From contig JAILAD010000051.1 in the NCBI GenBank assembly GCA_024681795.1, positions 62,001 through 126,000 of the forward strand: 64,000 bases of DNA. Reading direction: 5' to 3'. Origin of the DNA: Lachnospiraceae bacterium. Its GTDB lineage: Bacteria > Bacillota > Clostridia > Lachnospirales > Lachnospiraceae. Within the stretch, counting starts at the first letter, position 1; each line of letters opens with the position of its first letter. The notes beneath the pieces are model-generated. The model did not search any database. It had not been told where the DNA came from and saw nothing but the letters and a program-made list of their open reading frames with translations. Made by a program: the position numbers and the translations under genes. Shown in pieces: positions 5,708-24,952 of the stretch.

Positions 5708-7450
5708 ATGAAAAAAAATAATGCAGCAAAAATAATCCTGACAGGATTCTATATTCTTTTTACGCTTTTGACCGGCGGACTTTTTATCTTAAGCATTGCC
5801 CGCCCGCAAAACTATCTTTCCTCCGCCCGAATGGGAATTCAGACGGTGGTTTTTGCTTTTCTTTTTGCGGGGGTTATGTACCTTTGGAGGCGTTTTGCAC
5901 CGGCGTTTTTATCTTCCCCCAAGGTCTTTATTCCGCTTGCCGCAGTATACTGGATTTTTCTGTATCTGGTCTGTGCGATTCACGGAAATGCCTATCATGT
6001 GGTGGGAGACTATGAGATTCTTTATATCAGCGCGCTCGAACTGGCGGATGGGAAAGAACTGTCCTTTGCACATTATTTTATGACCTATGGAAATAACGCA
6101 GGACCGATGATTCTTCTGGCGGGTATTTTCAAAATCTGTCATGCTTTCCGGATTAATGAATTCTACCCGACACTGATTCTGACAAGTGCTACGGTGGCAG
6201 GCTCAATCTGGGCCGTGGGGGAACTGCTGACGGGAGGGGTTCTTTCGGAAAAAACAGTTACCGGAAAGAATGCTTCCAAAGAAACAAAGGCTTCTTTAAA
6301 GGAAATGCGAAAGGTGAATTACAGAATTCCGGTGCTGATTTTTACCGCATTCTGTCTGCCGGTTTATGTGTTTACCGGAGCATTCTATACGGATACTTTA
6401 AGTTTCGGTCTCGGCATGATTGCTGTAGCGCTGATCAAACTTTCGTATTCGAAAAAGAATGCGGAGTGGCTCATGGTTTTGGCGGGCTTTCTTACGGTAA
6501 TCGGCGGCATCTGGAAGATTACGACTTTGATTTTTCTGACTGCGGTATTCCTGACATGGGTGCTGTATCTGCTTGCCAATCTGAAAAAGACCGGAAAGCA
6601 AAGTGACGTAGTGAGGGATATGTCAAAACAGGGCAGGACAGATGAACTTTTGCCGGAAATCGAGGAGAAAACGAGAAATAAGATTCCCGGAGAGAGAACG
6701 GGAATCGTAAAAAGAATCATACTGTATGCGGTTTCGATTGTGTTATTTACGATCTTTATTTCGCTGATTTTTTCCTTTTTCACCATATATAAGGATTCCA
6801 AACAGTATGCGAATCCGACTTCCGCCTGGCTGGCGCTCGGAATGAGGGGGAACGGAAGTTATGCGGAAAACGTGGAGTTTTCGGATGCGGTAAATGCACT
6901 TTCAACGAAGGAAGAAAAGAGTGCTTTTGTCAAAGAATATATTAAGAATCACATTTCGGAAAGTTTTACTTTGGAACATATTTTATCCAAAGCACAGAAC
7001 AATTTTGCAGGCGGAACTTTTACCTGCAGTGATTTTACGGCCAATCCGAGCGGCCATTCGATTCTCTGGGAGATGATGGATCCCGGCGGAAGATATTATT
7101 ACGGCTGTTCCGGATATGCCTTCAGTTACGTGGTAATGATGTACCTGCTTTTTGCCGTCGGCGGGGTATGTGCGATAATGCGGCTCGTAAAAGGGGATTC
7201 CGATTCGGAAGAAAGCCCGGGCAAAACCGGACAGGAGGAAGGGAAGGGAATCAGTACAGTCTGCGGGCTGCCTTTCTTTAAAATTGCGGCGGATGTTTCA
7301 TTTTTCGGGCTTTTCGTTTTTCTGATGATCTGGGAATCGAATAACCGTCAGTTATATAACCAGCTGCCGGTGATGATACTCGGTCTTTTTTCCGGCGTGG
7401 ATTTCCTGCTTGAAAGCGCGGAACGGATGATCAAAAAAGAAAGCAAATGA
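5708..7450 (+). CDS. Polytopic membrane protein, glycosyltransferase-like (GT-C-like)
   Basis: 580-aa ORF with about 10 hydrophobic segments; early TM segment directly after the start. Confidence 0.6.
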   Translation: MKKNNAAKIILTGFYILFTLLTGGLFILSIARPQNYLSSARMGIQTVVFAFLFAGVMYLWRRFAPAFLSSPKVFIPLAAVYWIFLYLVCAIHGNAYHVVGDYEILYISALELADGKELSFAHYFMTYGNNAGPMILLAGIFKICHAFRINEFYPTLILTSATVAGSIWAVGELLTGGVLSEKTVTGKNASKETKASLKEMRKVNYRIPVLIFTAFCLPVYVFTGAFYTDTLSFGLGMIAVALIKLSYSKKNAEWLMVLAGFLTVIGGIWKITTLIFLTAVFLTWVLYLLANLKKTGKQSDVVRDMSKQGRTDELLPEIEEKTRNKIPGERTGIVKRIILYAVSIVLFTIFISLIFSFFTIYKDSKQYANPTSAWLALGMRGNGSYAENVEFSDAVNALSTKEEKSAFVKEYIKNHISESFTLEHILSKAQNNFAGGTFTCSDFTANPSGHSILWEMMDPGGRYYYGCSGYAFSYVVMMYLLFAVGGVCAIMRLVKGDSDSEESPGKTGQEEGKGISTVCGLPFFKIAADVSFFGLFVFLMIWESNNRQLYNQLPVMILGLFSGVDFLLESAERMIKKESK

Positions 7451-10302: not shown

Positions 10303-10380
10303 GGTTTACATAATATTATAACAGAAGATATTTTGGTTTACATAACGCAAATAGTAAAGGCTCTGAAAAGGTTTACATAA
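10303..10380 (+). repeat. Three direct repeats GGTTTACATAA upstream of the dynamin-like operon
   Basis: Exact 11-mers at 10303-10313, 10335-10345 and 10370-10380; the first two share the longer TTTGGTTTACATAA. Confidence 0.85.
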
Positions 10381-10385
10381 ATACA

Positions 10386-10436
10386 CTATATATAGTTAAA
10401 AATCAGCAAATAATTTTTTGACAAATCTATATATAG
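10386..10436. promoter_or_regulatory. Two identical 10-bp palindromes CTATATATAG, the second inside the promoter spacer
   Basis: CTATATATAG at 10386-10395 and 10427-10436, 41 bp start to start; the first extends to the 12-bp palindrome ACTATATATAGT. Confidence 0.7.
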
Positions 10437-10446
10437 GGTTTATAAT
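10418..10446 (+). promoter_or_regulatory. Exact-consensus sigma-A promoter of the dynamin operon
   Basis: TTGACA (10418-10423), 17-bp spacer, TATAAT (10441-10446). Confidence 0.85.
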
Positions 10447-10515
10447 CGTATTGTGTTTGAATAGGGGAGATATGCCCTTTTGGAACACAAATGGGGTTAT
10501 TTTTGGAGGAAATCA

Positions 10516-13128
10516 ATGAAAGAATTAATGATTATGTATCACCCGGTCAAGAAAGAGGTTCGCTTCCTGGCCAAAGCAAAAGGAGAATTTGTGGAAATCC
10601 CTTATGCTATGTGCCCGTGGCTGAATCAGTATGGTCCTGACAAGGGTGAATTTTTATTGCAGAATCATGGAAACAAATTCTTTGAGGACATTTGGGAGCA
10701 GTTCTTAAGAGATCAGGTCAGCATTACCTTTAAGGGAACTAAAATCGACTATGCCGATTTTGTCAAAAAAGTAAAAGAGTATAACAAAAGCAGCGGAGAA
10801 GAGCGGTTCATCATTGAAGATTTTGTTGAGCTTCCTTCCGTTGCGGAAATTTTCCAGAGCGTCAGTGAATTCTGCGATACCACACTGCAGATGCTTGGTG
10901 ACGAGCTTCAGAATTCCGATATCAAAGATTCTTATTTAAGAAGAAAAGCGGAGTTTGAGGAAAAGAAAGCGAAGTTAAACAATTCCGATGTTAATCTCTG
11001 TCTTGTCGGAACTTATTCATCCGGTAAATCCACATTTATCAATGCATTGATCGGCCGCAGAATTCTGCCGGAAAGCATCAATTCCGAGACCGCGAAGATG
11101 TTCCGTATTTCCAATGCACCGAAGCCTTCGGTAGCGTTCAAGATTAAGAAAGGCGGAAATCCGGAACATGAAATTTTAGCGACGATTACGTGGGATGAGG
11201 CAAAGAAGAAATTTGCATTCCATTCTGACGAACCCTGTGAATTCACGGAAGAGAAAGTAAACGGAGAAATCAATTCTTCGATTATGTTCCGTCTTCAGCA
11301 GCATGAGCAGTTATATCAGATTCTGAAGAAATTAAATGATATTCCGAACCATACGGATGCGGATAATGAGGAATTCGTGGACGGAATCATTGATGTTTAT
11401 TTCCCGATTCCTCTGGGGAAAAATATCAACTTTACATTCTACGATACCCCGGGTACCGATTCGAATTCCAACGAACATCTTCTTGTTCTTCAGAAAGCCC
11501 TGCAGCAGCAGACAAACTCCATTCTAATCGTTTTATACGAGCCGACCAAGATGGAAGGAACCGGTAACTCGATTCTGTATAACTTAATCGGCGACAGCAA
11601 TGACAAGAAGAACGATACAAAGGTTACGATTGACCTTGCACGTTCCCTGCATATCATTAACCAGTCCGATACCAAATCCTTGGAAGATTTAAAGGAACTT
11701 CGCAATAAGAAAGTGGAAGTTACCTTAAAGGAAACCGATAAGATTTATAACGAAGAAGCAGAACAGATTGATCTTGCAAAAGAGCGTTTGTTCTTCGTAT
11801 CCGCGAAAGCGGCATATATCGCAAAAGCCATCGGTAATAACGTGGATACCGAGGAAGAAAGAAGATGGCTTGCAAACCACAAAGGCGAAATCAACAATGA
11901 GCCGGTACAGGATCCGTTCCTTCGCGAGAATGCTCCGAAGCAGGAAGTGGAAACCGGTATGTATTTTAAACTGGACAAGCTTGCCAATTCCGAGAATGAA
12001 ACAAAGCAGTTAATCAAGGACTGCAACGCGGAATTAAAGAAATGCCAGAATCCGGAAGATACTTCCCTTTACCCGATTGTACAGCGTATCTACGTTAACT
12101 CCGGTATGTATGCAATCGAGAAGGAAATCATCCGCTACGCACAGAAATACGCACTGGCCGTTAAGGCAAAAGGTCTGTATGACGGAATTTCCAGCGTCGT
12201 TAATTTTATCCGTGAGGATTACGAAGTAATCGAGAATCAGGCCCGTCTCTCCAAAGAGGAGATTGAGCGCAATATCGATACCATGAAGAACAGCATGGTT
12301 CGTGACATTGACGCGGCATATGCGGATTATATGCAGAATATCACAACCGAGAGCCTGGTATTCCAGATTGACGATATCAACCAGCTTTATACGGTTATCG
12401 AAAACCGTAAAATCCAGGCCGGAAAGATTGCAGACAAGATGAAATGGATTGCAATCCGTCCGGAAGTTTTCGAAGAGAAGAACAACATTATCCGTAACGA
12501 ACTGAACCGTTATCTGGAAGAGATTGATAACAGTTACAAGAATAACCGCGGAAGAATTCTGCAGCAGCAGATTGATGAATTAAAGGGTATTATTATCCAG
12601 AAGATTACCGGATACAAGGGAATCGATGAGAACTTAATCCGCCGGATTACCAATGTTTCCGAAACCCAGATTCCGCCTTCATCCTTAAAGGCATTGAAGA
12701 TGGACGAGTATATCAATAAGCAGAAAGCGATTTTCATTTTCTCGACGAACAATAAAAAGAACTATAAGGCCGATGTTGAGCAGATGTTTGCCAATACGAC
12801 CAAAGTTCAGTTTGATGCATATATCAACGAGATTATGGAAGTTGCCAGAGATAAGACCACTGAACTGATTCAGGAATTCAAGAACAATATTGATTCCATT
12901 TCCAGTTCCCTGGAACTTCTGATTAAAGATGAGAGGCGTGCTTCCGAAGAGCAGTTAAAGGCGAAAACCGTACTTGATTTAGTCGGTAAGATGGATGACG
13001 AACTCAACAAGAAAATCTGGGGAGAAGAGGAAATCAAGCAGGCGGAAGACGTTATCCTTGGAAAGAAGGATGAGAAGAAAGAAGAGGATAAGGATGAAAA
13101 AAAGGAAGAGAAAAAGGATGACGAGTAA
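10516..13128 (+). CDS. Bacterial dynamin-like / dynamin-family GTPase with a novel-looking N-terminal domain and a highly charged C-terminus
   Basis: GTYSSGKST P-loop (11008-11034), DTPGTD G3 (11443-11460), helical C-terminal half, KKDEKKEEDKDEKKEEKKDDE tail. ATG at 10516 follows GGAGG (10505-10509); the ORF track begins at 10480. Confidence 0.8.
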   Translation: MKELMIMYHPVKKEVRFLAKAKGEFVEIPYAMCPWLNQYGPDKGEFLLQNHGNKFFEDIWEQFLRDQVSITFKGTKIDYADFVKKVKEYNKSSGEERFIIEDFVELPSVAEIFQSVSEFCDTTLQMLGDELQNSDIKDSYLRRKAEFEEKKAKLNNSDVNLCLVGTYSSGKSTFINALIGRRILPESINSETAKMFRISNAPKPSVAFKIKKGGNPEHEILATITWDEAKKKFAFHSDEPCEFTEEKVNGEINSSIMFRLQQHEQLYQILKKLNDIPNHTDADNEEFVDGIIDVYFPIPLGKNINFTFYDTPGTDSNSNEHLLVLQKALQQQTNSILIVLYEPTKMEGTGNSILYNLIGDSNDKKNDTKVTIDLARSLHIINQSDTKSLEDLKELRNKKVEVTLKETDKIYNEEAEQIDLAKERLFFVSAKAAYIAKAIGNNVDTEEERRWLANHKGEINNEPVQDPFLRENAPKQEVETGMYFKLDKLANSENETKQLIKDCNAELKKCQNPEDTSLYPIVQRIYVNSGMYAIEKEIIRYAQKYALAVKAKGLYDGISSVVNFIREDYEVIENQARLSKEEIERNIDTMKNSMVRDIDAAYADYMQNITTESLVFQIDDINQLYTVIENRKIQAGKIADKMKWIAIRPEVFEEKNNIIRNELNRYLEEIDNSYKNNRGRILQQQIDELKGIIIQKITGYKGIDENLIRRITNVSETQIPPSSLKALKMDEYINKQKAIFIFSTNNKKNYKADVEQMFANTTKVQFDAYINEIMEVARDKTTELIQEFKNNIDSISSSLELLIKDERRASEEQLKAKTVLDLVGKMDDELNKKIWGEEEIKQAEDVILGKKDEKKEEDKDEKKEEKKDDE

Positions 13129-14771
13129 TGAGTAAGAATTCTGACAAGAGTACTTCCAAAGGTACTTCTGGTTCATTAATTGAATTTCTTCGTGACGAAG
13201 AATTCTGGTACATCCTTTTAACATTTTATTTCTTTATCCGTAATGTATCCTATGTTTATTCCAAGCAGGGAATGCTTTTAAATTCCGATGCATCCGGTGA
13301 GATGATTCTTGCCGATCACTTAAACAAAGTCGGCGGATTTCTTTCCAAAGACTGGTTTTATTCATCGGAACTTCGAGTTTTAAACACACAGATTGTATAT
13401 AAGCTGGGACTTTTGTTTTTCCCACACAACTGGCATTTAGCCCGTACCTTTTCGGTCGGGCTATTTATGTTGCTTTTAATTGCGGCAGGCTGGTATTTAA
13501 TGTGGGTAATCGGAAAGAAAAAGAAGGGCTTTCTGGCAGCTGCAATTCTGATTTGTCCGTTCGGACAGTGGTATGCCTGGAATGTAATTTATAATTCCTA
13601 TTATGTTCCGCATATTGTAATTTCGTTTGTTTCCGTAGCAATGTTTATTCACCTGCTGAAAACGGATAAGAAGGCTTTAAGAATCGTTTTGACAGTGCTG
13701 TCTGTAGTTCTTGCGTTTGTTGCGGGACTTGGCGGTGTGCGTCAGCTTATGGTCTGCTATATTCCGCTCTGGATTGCTGTTGTAATTCTTTTCCTTTCGG
13801 AATTTTGGAAAAAAACGGATGCGGAAATGGAAAACAGTAAACGGGAAAACGGTAAAACGGGATTTGAGGGAAGCAGATTCTTTATGCCGGTTATTGCGAG
13901 CGGGATTTTAGCCGGAAGTTTTGCAGGCTATCTGGTAAATGAAAAGATACTGTCTCAGATTTTCAGCTTTAAAGATTATACCGAAACCATCTGGATGGAG
14001 TTTAATTTCGAAAATGTCAAAATAGTTCTGGAACAGCTTTGCAGACAGTTCGGTTGGATTCCGTATGTGAAGGTACTCGGATTTGAAGGCGTTGTGAATT
14101 TTATAAGCGTTGTTCTGATGATTGCGATGGTTGCGGCATTCATCATTCAGTGGAAGCGGTTTAAGAGGCTTTCAAAAGAAGAGAAGATTCTCCTTATGTA
14201 TACAACCATCGGTTCGGCTTTGATGCTTTTCCTGTTTGCTGAGACATGGGTTTATAATGAATCCTATTGGATTCCGATTCTTCCGTTTATGTTCCTGCCG
14301 TTGATTCTTTTAATCCGGGTTGAGGGAAAAGATATCAGGGGAATTCTGTTTTCGGGTGCGCTTATGCTGACGCTTTTCCTGATTGGTATTTCAACCGGAA
14401 AGCATCCGTTTATTATCGGTGTTCCGGGCGAGGAGCAGATTAAGAAAGTATCCTACTGGCTGGAAGAGCAGGATGAGTATACAAAGGGTATTGCGGCATT
14501 CTGGTCCGCTCCGGTGGTAACGGAACTTACGGACGGTAAGATAGAGATGTGGACAGTGGAAGATTATGAGCACCTGGAACCGTCTACCTGGCTTCAGGTG
14601 AAATCCCATATAAACCTTCCGGAAGGCAGGGTATTCGTGCTGATTCCCTGCAGTTCTGCAGATGCGGATCCGTATCGAAAGGAAGAACTGAAGGACAGGA
14701 TTATCTATAATGACGGCGAATACATTGTATACGGGCTTGAGAATTATATGGAGTATTTCGGAACTGAATAG
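13128..14771 (+). CDS. Polytopic membrane protein, glycosyltransferase-like, translationally coupled to the dynamin-like GTPase
   Basis: 547 aa, multiple TM segments; TAATG junction with the upstream CDS (1-bp overlap). Confidence 0.65.
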   Translation: MSKNSDKSTSKGTSGSLIEFLRDEEFWYILLTFYFFIRNVSYVYSKQGMLLNSDASGEMILADHLNKVGGFLSKDWFYSSELRVLNTQIVYKLGLLFFPHNWHLARTFSVGLFMLLLIAAGWYLMWVIGKKKKGFLAAAILICPFGQWYAWNVIYNSYYVPHIVISFVSVAMFIHLLKTDKKALRIVLTVLSVVLAFVAGLGGVRQLMVCYIPLWIAVVILFLSEFWKKTDAEMENSKRENGKTGFEGSRFFMPVIASGILAGSFAGYLVNEKILSQIFSFKDYTETIWMEFNFENVKIVLEQLCRQFGWIPYVKVLGFEGVVNFISVVLMIAMVAAFIIQWKRFKRLSKEEKILLMYTTIGSALMLFLFAETWVYNESYWIPILPFMFLPLILLIRVEGKDIRGILFSGALMLTLFLIGISTGKHPFIIGVPGEEQIKKVSYWLEEQDEYTKGIAAFWSAPVVTELTDGKIEMWTVEDYEHLEPSTWLQVKSHINLPEGRVFVLIPCSSADADPYRKEELKDRIIYNDGEYIVYGLENYMEYFGTE

Positions 14772-14837: not shown

Positions 14838-14870
14838 AACCCTGCGGAATATCCTCCGCAGGGTTCTTTT
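14838..14870. terminator. Rho-independent terminator between convergent genes
   Basis: AACCCTGCGGA-atatcc-TCCGCAGGGTT, 11-bp perfect stem, T-rich flank on + strand and A-run on the other side. Confidence 0.9.
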
Positions 14871-23356: not shown

Positions 23357-24952
23357 TTGGAAATGTTTTCGAAATTGTTAAAGGAAAAGCCGGAAGAAGT
23401 ATTAAAATCACTTGCGGACAAATTGCTCGGAGAAGATAAGGGACTGTTTAAAACCGTGATGTTTTCCACGGCGGTTTTTTCCTTCTTCTGTTATTTTTAC
23501 GAAATGATTTACGGACTCGGATGCCCGGATACGTTAAGCGAAGGAGTACGGTTTTACCGGAATTCCGATTATTCGACTTCGCAGGCCAGATGGATGCTCC
23601 GCTTTATTAACGAAATCGGCGGGAAGAATGTCATCATTCCGATTGTGACGGTTTTGGGATACTGTTTTATGATTGGAATCTCGACTTTTATCATCTGCCG
23701 GATGATTCATCTGGAAAAGAAAATCGCTGCATTTTTCTTAACGGCGTTAATGGTAAGTTTTCCGATTATCCTTCACCATTTTGCATTTCTTTACATGGCG
23801 ATGGCATATTCGTTTTCTTTTCTTACGGTTGTACTCGGAGTCTTTTTTATAAGAAAAAGAAAGATTTACGGGTATATTTTGGGAACATTCTGTTTCCTTC
23901 TGATGCTCGGGTCGTACCAGTCCTATATCGGAGCGGTATCTGCACTGGCACTTGTGATGCTGATTTATGATTCGCTTCACGAAAAGAAAATCGGGAAATG
24001 TTTATCCGACTTTGGTCTGACGGCGTCGTGCGGACTTGCGGCATGTCTGATCAACCAGCCTTTTTCAAAACTGATGATGCTTGTTTTCCATACGGGACAG
24101 GACGGAAGAGTCAGTGATTTTTCCGTTCGCAGCATTTTTGAAAACATCGGTTTTTCCTTAACCTATTCCTATAAATGGTTCTTTTCCTATTTCAATTCGG
24201 ACATTCTTGCAAGGAAATATCTGTATCTCGGACTGGGGATTCTTCTGACGGTGCTTTGCATCACGGCTTTCGTTTTGAAAATAAAGGAAAAATCCGTGGC
24301 GGGAGCGGTAACGTTTTTAATTTCGGTCCTTCTTATGCCGCTTGCGATGAATTTCCTTCTTGTCATTATGCCGACCAACGGGATGAGGGATATTTTAAGA
24401 TATCAGTATGCGCTTGTTTTTGTCGTAATCTTTATTCTTCTTTATTATCTTGAGGGGAAGATTCTGACAAACATCTGTTATTACGCATCCCTGCTTATTT
24501 TCTGTGTGCTTTTATGGGGTTATGTCATTTCCGCAAACTGTACGGCGATGATGTATAAAATTTCCTATGACCATGCAATTCAGCAGGCAATGCTGATGAT
24601 GGAAGAGATTCATGAAATGGATGAATACGTGCCGAACGAAACCCATATCGTGATGGGCGGCTCGTTCCCGTATGATACGCTGCAGCAGCAGTATCCGAAG
24701 ATTTTCCGCTTTGCCGAGCAGGAGGGCGGTCCGGTGTTCTGGCCGAATCTCTACGGAATGACGAACTGCAGATATTATTTCTTCTGGGATTTCTTAGGCG
24801 TAAACGCCGGTTATATTTCCGATGACGAATATCTTTCGGCAATCCGGAGCGATACTTATAAGAATATGCCGTGCTGGCCGGCGGAAGGTTCCGTGCGGAT
24901 GATTAACGGGGATGTGGTAATAAAACTGTGGGAAGGCGCGCCGGAATGGTAG
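23357..24952 (+). CDS. GtrII-like glucosyltransferase-family polytopic membrane protein
   Basis: 531 aa, about 10 TM segments; SNYSTSQARWM-type periplasmic loop (YRNSDYSTSQARWMLRFINE), C-terminal ETHIVMGGSFPYDTLQQQYPKIF. Confidence 0.7.
   Translation: MEMFSKLLKEKPEEVLKSLADKLLGEDKGLFKTVMFSTAVFSFFCYFYEMIYGLGCPDTLSEGVRFYRNSDYSTSQARWMLRFINEIGGKNVIIPIVTVLGYCFMIGISTFIICRMIHLEKKIAAFFLTALMVSFPIILHHFAFLYMAMAYSFSFLTVVLGVFFIRKRKIYGYILGTFCFLLMLGSYQSYIGAVSALALVMLIYDSLHEKKIGKCLSDFGLTASCGLAACLINQPFSKLMMLVFHTGQDGRVSDFSVRSIFENIGFSLTYSYKWFFSYFNSDILARKYLYLGLGILLTVLCITAFVLKIKEKSVAGAVTFLISVLLMPLAMNFLLVIMPTNGMRDILRYQYALVFVVIFILLYYLEGKILTNICYYASLLIFCVLLWGYVISANCTAMMYKISYDHAIQQAMLMMEEIHEMDEYVPNETHIVMGGSFPYDTLQQQYPKIFRFAEQEGGPVFWPNLYGMTNCRYYFFWDFLGVNAGYISDDEYLSAIRSDTYKNMPCWPAEGSVRMINGDVVIKLWEGAPEW

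Follow-up and report, generated by a model that had tools for sequence, protein, structure and literature searches.

A core dynamin-like GTPase of Lachnospiraceae that probably works without the GT-C-like membrane protein encoded behind it

Bacterial dynamin-like proteins (DLPs) are said to be mostly encoded in pairs (PMC6104087). In the Campylobacter pair Cj-DLP1/Cj-DLP2 (5owv, 5oxf; PMC6104087), whose members act together from one operon, Cj-DLP1 assembles via a 119-amino acid (aa) N-terminal assembly domain, and the trunk of Cj-DLP2 ends in a short, hydrophobic and disordered tip, FVLF. Bacillus subtilis DynA, a Firmicute dynamin of about 1190 aa that is a two-headed fusion and a working model for membrane protection, delays phage lysis (PMC8844932); the anti-phage Eleos system (LeoA/LeoBC) likewise uses dynamin-like GTPases, which are paired, and SynDLP of Synechocystis (Slr0869; PMC10104851) is a single large bacterial dynamin. 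Here we describe an 870-aa dynamin-like GTPase that is encoded, with a 547-aa polytopic membrane protein directly behind it, in a 64,000-nt stretch of contig JAILAD010000051.1 of a Lachnospiraceae bacterium; this whole stretch is called the window, and all coordinates are window positions. An earlier note on this DNA had taken the two genes for a dedicated two-gene operon encoding a two-component module. Our results indicate that the GTPase is quite likely a lone, single-copy, vertically inherited dynamin of several Lachnospiraceae genera, functioning independently of the downstream membrane protein. The main features of the locus are as follows.

10418-10446, plus strand: sigma-A-type promoter TTGACA-N17-TATAAT of the GTPase gene, 12 of 12 consensus bases
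10516-13128, plus strand: gene for the 870-aa dynamin-like GTPase, from the ATG at 10516 to a stop codon ending at 13128
10516-10851, plus strand: N-terminal domain of the GTPase, residues 1-112 (predicted b-b-b-a-b-a-b), distinct and conserved
10999-11559, plus strand: Dynamin_N GTPase domain, residues 162-348, with the P-loop at 165-173 (GTYSSGKST) and DTPG at 310-313 (within DTPGTD)
12721-12753, plus strand: hydrophobic loop QKAIFIFSTNN, residues 736-746, conserved, between long trunk helices, with a predicted local distance difference test (pLDDT) score below 50 over most of it
13036-13125, plus strand: charged K/E/D tail, residues 841-870, disordered and unconserved
13128-14771, plus strand: gene for the 547-aa polytopic membrane protein of predicted GT-C fold, its ATG inside the TAATG overlap
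14838-14865, plus strand: intrinsic terminator closing the local two-gene transcript, 11-pair hairpin plus U-run

The GTPase gene was present in 30 of the 31 genomes of the window's genus, the lone exception being a genome that is 76% complete, and in this genus it stands in the syntenic order hisH-hisF-ung(-other genes)-GTPase. The nearest named loci belong to the rumen/hindgut Lachnospiraceae assemblies RUG13462 (98%) and RUG12880 (97%), and orthologues with 58-70% identity were found in other Lachnospiraceae, including NK4A179, AB2028, NC2008, XPB1003, Lachnoclostridium sp. and Acetatifactor sp. In the NK4A179 lineage, a PNP_UDP_1 phosphorylase and an RsgI-like protein are encoded 5′ of the GTPase, and the other lineages mostly have divergent genes there. 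The 547-aa protein directly follows the GTPase in 5 of the 26 genus loci with a readable downstream side, i.e., the window, G324, G323, G308 and G320; the remaining loci have downstream of the GTPase 1) an EamA permease (13 loci), 2) another gene or nothing before nifJ (7 loci), or 3) a 661-aa protein (G120). A protein related to the 547-aa one is encoded in G314, G319 and G322 on a contig other than that of the GTPase. Among 299 genomes sampled from the family, 22 had the membrane protein and 3 the orthologous GTPase, and the two coincided only in the window's genome; the other 21 carry a 547-aa-type protein without an orthologous GTPase, and the GTPase orthologues of G120 (92%) and G004 (59%) come without the 547-aa protein. 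The partner-bearing species form one clade (support 100/100), which also holds G120, with its different membrane protein, and G301, in which the contig is cut. The earlier note had suggested a neighbourhood search for conserved dynamin and GT-C-like pairs, and had named two outcomes that would speak against such a system, namely GTPase homologues commonly found without the membrane partner or a pair found in one strain only. GTPase orthologues without the partner are indeed common; the pair itself reaches beyond one strain, but is limited to one subclade of one genus.

The junction of the two genes was as the earlier note had read it: the TAA of the GTPase overlaps the ATG of the 547-aa open reading frame (ORF) in TAATG (13126-13130), and the second gene is followed by a terminator, whose hairpin at 14838-14865 had a z of -7.6 versus shuffled sequence. 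The promoter, which had been overlooked, sits 69 bp ahead of the GTPase ATG, with GGAGGA at 10505-10510 in between; it is kept in G324, G323, G308 and G320, plus G120, the last being without the 547-aa protein. Both ORFs are real genes, as judged from the ratio of nonsynonymous to synonymous substitution rates (dN/dS) between partner-bearing species, and the two proteins do not evolve as a matched pair. For the GTPase, which is under strong purifying selection, dN/dS was 0.02-0.06 (all pairs) at 91-98% identity; for the 547-aa protein it was about 0.10-0.21 (unsaturated dS only) at 47-83% identity, and the identity of the partner went down to 43-55% where the GTPase held 92-94%. In 30 of 55 loci, a terminator-like hairpin stood no more than 130 nt past the GTPase stop, versus 0.9 expected from shuffled sequence, and 19 of the 20 genus loci without the 547-aa partner had a terminator directly after the GTPase; in G120, the GTPase and the 661-aa gene are separated by a strong hairpin that lacks a U-run. 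In the simplest interpretation, the gene for the GTPase was ancestrally monocistronic, and the membrane-protein gene came to lie between its stop codon and terminator in one subclade. It may have been inserted after the GTPase and later lost or replaced in G120. It is therefore the near-universal presence in the genus, the gene's own promoter, the usual terminator of its own, the differing neighbours elsewhere and the scarcity of the partner that lead us to regard the GTPase as a lone dynamin.

By sequence and predicted fold, the GTPase is a bacterial dynamin-like protein. Pfam Dynamin_N matched residues 162-348 (1.4e-17, 64.7 bits versus a cut-off of 27), in agreement with the assignment made earlier from the motifs GTYSSGKST and DTPGTD; this dynamin-type G domain has the P-loop GxxxxGKS/T and DxPG, with G165, K171, S172 and D310-G313 invariant in 23 of 23 relatives. 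The AlphaFold2 model, made on 23 relatives and of moderate confidence (mean pLDDT 68, predicted template modelling score (pTM) 0.56), had in order the N-terminal domain, a helical linker, the G domain and long helices (531-835), and the predicted trunk helices (531-608, 611-644, 649-698, 747-790 and 797-835) correspond to the neck and trunk of DLPs. Foldseek placed SynDLP (E-value 3.6e-14), BDLP (4.6e-10), mitofusin, the Campylobacter DLP pair (5.8e-9) and IniA in the top ranks, the best matches being bacterial dynamins, and BDLP ranked first in a profile search of PDB sequences. No transmembrane span was predicted in the GTPase. It was the single strong Dynamin_N match in the window's genome, the other matches being weak and sized as ordinary small GTPases (300-430 aa), and no second dynamin, adjoining or fused in the manner of Cj-DLP1/2, DynA/B or LeoA/LeoBC, was found at the GTPase loci or as a strong match in the genome.

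The N-terminal domain, of about 105 aa (residues 1-105 with pLDDT mostly about 80), is distinct and conserved and had no match in Pfam, nor to any PDB chain by sequence, so that it is still as unrecognised as the earlier note had it; sequence homology with a solved structure, sought among PDB sequences, was rejected. We consider it a candidate assembly or regulatory domain. The K/E/D-only tail described earlier is present at residues 841-870 but not conserved, orthologues ranging from none (838 aa) to more than 100 additional residues. A 163-aa protein of G055 (L065:2345-2836) has its first 60 residues 44% identical to the N-terminal domain, and carries DUF6985 as its C-terminal part; in the HerA modules described below, this domain comes after the nuclease.

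Compared with the described systems, the GTPase resembles the Cj-DLPs in its dynamin G domain and its helical neck and trunk, and it has a domain of similar size in the position of the globular assembly domain (about 119 aa) of Cj-DLP1; it differs in that its genome has no strong second dynamin and its N-terminal domain matches no PDB chain by sequence. Since the similar-sized domain occupies the same position and no second dynamin is at hand, homotypic assembly appears likely. By position and hydrophobicity, the conserved loop 736-746 is a candidate lipid-binding tip, like the FVLF tip of Cj-DLP2 (PMC6104087). SynDLP, which Foldseek ranked best and matched across most of the chain, is cyanobacterial and has 13% identity to the GTPase. 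DynA is two-headed, whereas the GTPase has one G domain, and membership in the DynA family (NF052648) was rejected at 39.9 bits over 86 residues versus an equivalog cut-off of 1600. Unlike the Eleos dynamins, the GTPase has no pair; neither it nor the 547-aa protein matched Eleos or other PADLOC-listed defence systems at E≤1, and the Eleos models weakly touch two distant GTPase relatives. By analogy, the GTPase is probably membrane-binding or membrane-protecting. As a soluble peripheral protein it would self-assemble, with the N-terminal domain in place of the Cj-DLP1 assembly domain, and would contact the inner membrane via the hydrophobic trunk-tip loop QKAIFIFST; its GTP-dependent assembly might then tether or stabilise the membrane, in the way that Bacillus DynA does under stress from pores, antibiotics or phages.

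The 547-aa protein has about 9 hydrophobic spans and no Pfam family above cut-off. Its predicted structure is confident (pLDDT 87, pTM 0.88) and has the GT-C transmembrane fold, matching STT3, PglB, AglB, ArnT and a C-mannosyltransferase in Foldseek (E-values of 1e-6 to 1e-4 for STT3/PglB/AglB/ArnT; TM-scores up to 0.55), which bears out the earlier description of a glycosyltransferase-like polytopic protein. It shares this fold with GT-C enzymes (STT3/PglB/ArnT/PMT), yet has about 10-14% identity to any solved GT-C. Residues D54 and E58, just past the first long helix, are invariant or nearly so in 24 sequences; judged by sequence position, they fall where the catalytic acidic residues of GT-C enzymes are expected, in the first extracytoplasmic loop, and may be such residues. 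In other genomes, several members of its family adjoin GT2, DUF2304, acyltransferase, GtrII or PMT_2 genes. We therefore regard it as a putative polyprenyl-phosphate-sugar-dependent GT-C glycosyltransferase, the likely role of which would be lipid-linked sugar transfer to a cell-surface acceptor. In one subclade it would be co-expressed with the GTPase by position, as an opportunistic envelope-sugar enzyme and not a dedicated partner. In G120 (L058:12636-15785), the slot after the GTPase holds the 661-aa membrane protein, with 11 spans, and a HAD-like lipoprotein.

Members of the GTPase family with 20-32% identity include proteins encoded next to a large HerA/DUF87 ATPase, after which come an HNH/colicin-DNase-like protein and DUF6985. 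About 15 of 20 HerA loci with wide flanks had at least one dynamin in the same gene run, usually one small (about 430-460 aa) and one large (about 750-880 aa). The module recurrent in Lachnospirales consists of WYL (in some), the small dynamin, the large dynamin, a protein of about 180 aa, the HerA/DUF87 ATPase (1000-1240 aa), an HNH/colicin-type nuclease (190-300 aa) and DUF6985, and it was located at L283, L284, L288-L290, L292-L295, L297-L299, L301, L302, L230, L235-L237, L060-L064, L066 and L147; the WYL-domain regulator upstream was confirmed in L230 and L235, and elsewhere is suggested by gene size alone. At L064, a Wadjet-type JetC/JetD pair lies 5′ of a dynamin gene of the GTPase family. 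PADLOC returned generic HerA matches for the module and weak LeoA/LeoBC matches among the tested dynamins, with no model for the whole unit, and no description of a dynamin-HerA system was found in a search of a limited body of literature. The module is a candidate conflict or defence system. In the tree, the HerA-linked dynamins occupy three separate places, and one of them, from G545, groups on a long branch with the core clade and shares the N-terminal domain of that clade. These relationships suggest, but do not prove, that the core GTPase split off, HerA-free, from a conflict-module family. No HerA homologue of the module type was detected in the window's genome by a search whose positive control gave matches in G213, G545, G381 and G302, and the genus genomes tested had none either, apart from one in G302 that is part of a separate module.

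The proposal that the GTPase and the GT-C protein jointly form a two-component membrane-remodelling or envelope-stress module draws on the overlapping codons, the one promoter and the one terminator. Several points weigh for it, or otherwise against the reading of a lone membrane-active dynamin: in five species, the start-stop overlap and the tight spacing of -1 to +3 nt point to coordinated expression; selection in this subclade could favour a GT-C-like protein in the slot after the GTPase, and the 661-aa protein of G120 may be remotely related to the 547-aa protein (hhalign 96.5%, from one sequence; weak profile match to the GT-C family); the whole-chain TM-scores of the GTPase are low and its model is moderate, so that trunk topology and membrane tip are tentative; and its membrane role is drawn by analogy. 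However, the partner is missing from most GTPase-bearing genomes, the GTPase is mostly monocistronic, the partner family elsewhere lies far from the GTPase in envelope-glycan loci, and the evolutionary rates are very unlike. A dedicated dynamin and GT-C pair was thus rejected on neighbourhoods, terminators, evolutionary rates and presence/absence, the pair not being conserved across the GTPase range, and the module, largely refuted already as a general system, is very improbable. Being a local neighbour that changes fast and is common to only a handful of close relatives, the 547-aa protein does not make up a dedicated system with the GTPase.

Two further explanations concern what a lone GTPase would do. 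It might be a chromosomally fixed, HerA-free offshoot of the mobile dynamin-HerA-nuclease module, still serving in phage or mobile-element defence, e.g., by membrane sensing or delayed lysis. The HerA-linked relatives, the G545 grouping, the joining of the N-terminal domain to DUF6985 in G055 and the delayed phage lysis by DynA are in favour of this, but the GTPase is a core, syntenic and strongly conserved gene, unlike a patchy defence-island gene, it has no PADLOC match, its own genome has no HerA, and G545 stands on a long branch with weak support; we take such a defence role as possible and somewhat doubtful. With the same reserve, the GTPase may be seen as a domesticated member of a largely uncharted dynamin family, one that has shed HerA and the nuclease but retains a membrane-sensing or abortive role. 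A CrfC-like housekeeping scaffold that serves division, sporulation or chromosome segregation and does not remodel membranes would fit a core gene with its own promoter, a very low dN/dS and no transmembrane span; CrfC membership, however, was rejected on a fragmentary similarity in the P-loop region (21 bits versus a cut-off of 1146), and the best structural matches are membrane-active dynamins, which makes this scaffold unlikely.

Other features of the window were noticed, the first of them 35-115 bp 5′ of the GTPase promoter.

10303-10380, plus strand: three exact GGTTTACATAA copies (starts 10303, 10335 and 10370), 3 matches versus 0.01 expected

At the same upstream place, sister species have only related sequence, namely TTTACAT motifs and TTTACATAAATA-CA-A-ATATAG; the repeats are possible, putative operator or leader repeats. 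A 580-aa polytopic protein without Pfam assignment (5708-7450) is encoded between a PBP-GGDEF-EAL protein and CheW; it is missing at the same place in G120 and G308, has a 38% relative in G301, and was ruled out as a relative of the 547-aa protein, no similarity being found (hhalign 0.6%). A 531-aa GtrII-type glucosyltransferase (PF14264) is encoded at 23357-24952, with a HAD hydrolase next in order.

Overlapping stop and start codons and a common transcript, seen in one genome, can thus hint at a two-component system for which comparative genomics gives no support. The dynamin-HerA-nuclease module is the more interesting lead and is worth testing as a defence system. The GTPase of rumen Lachnospiraceae, a core dynamin in single copy whose N-terminal domain is unnamed, offers a simple one-dynamin case in which the function of unpaired bacterial dynamins can usefully be studied.

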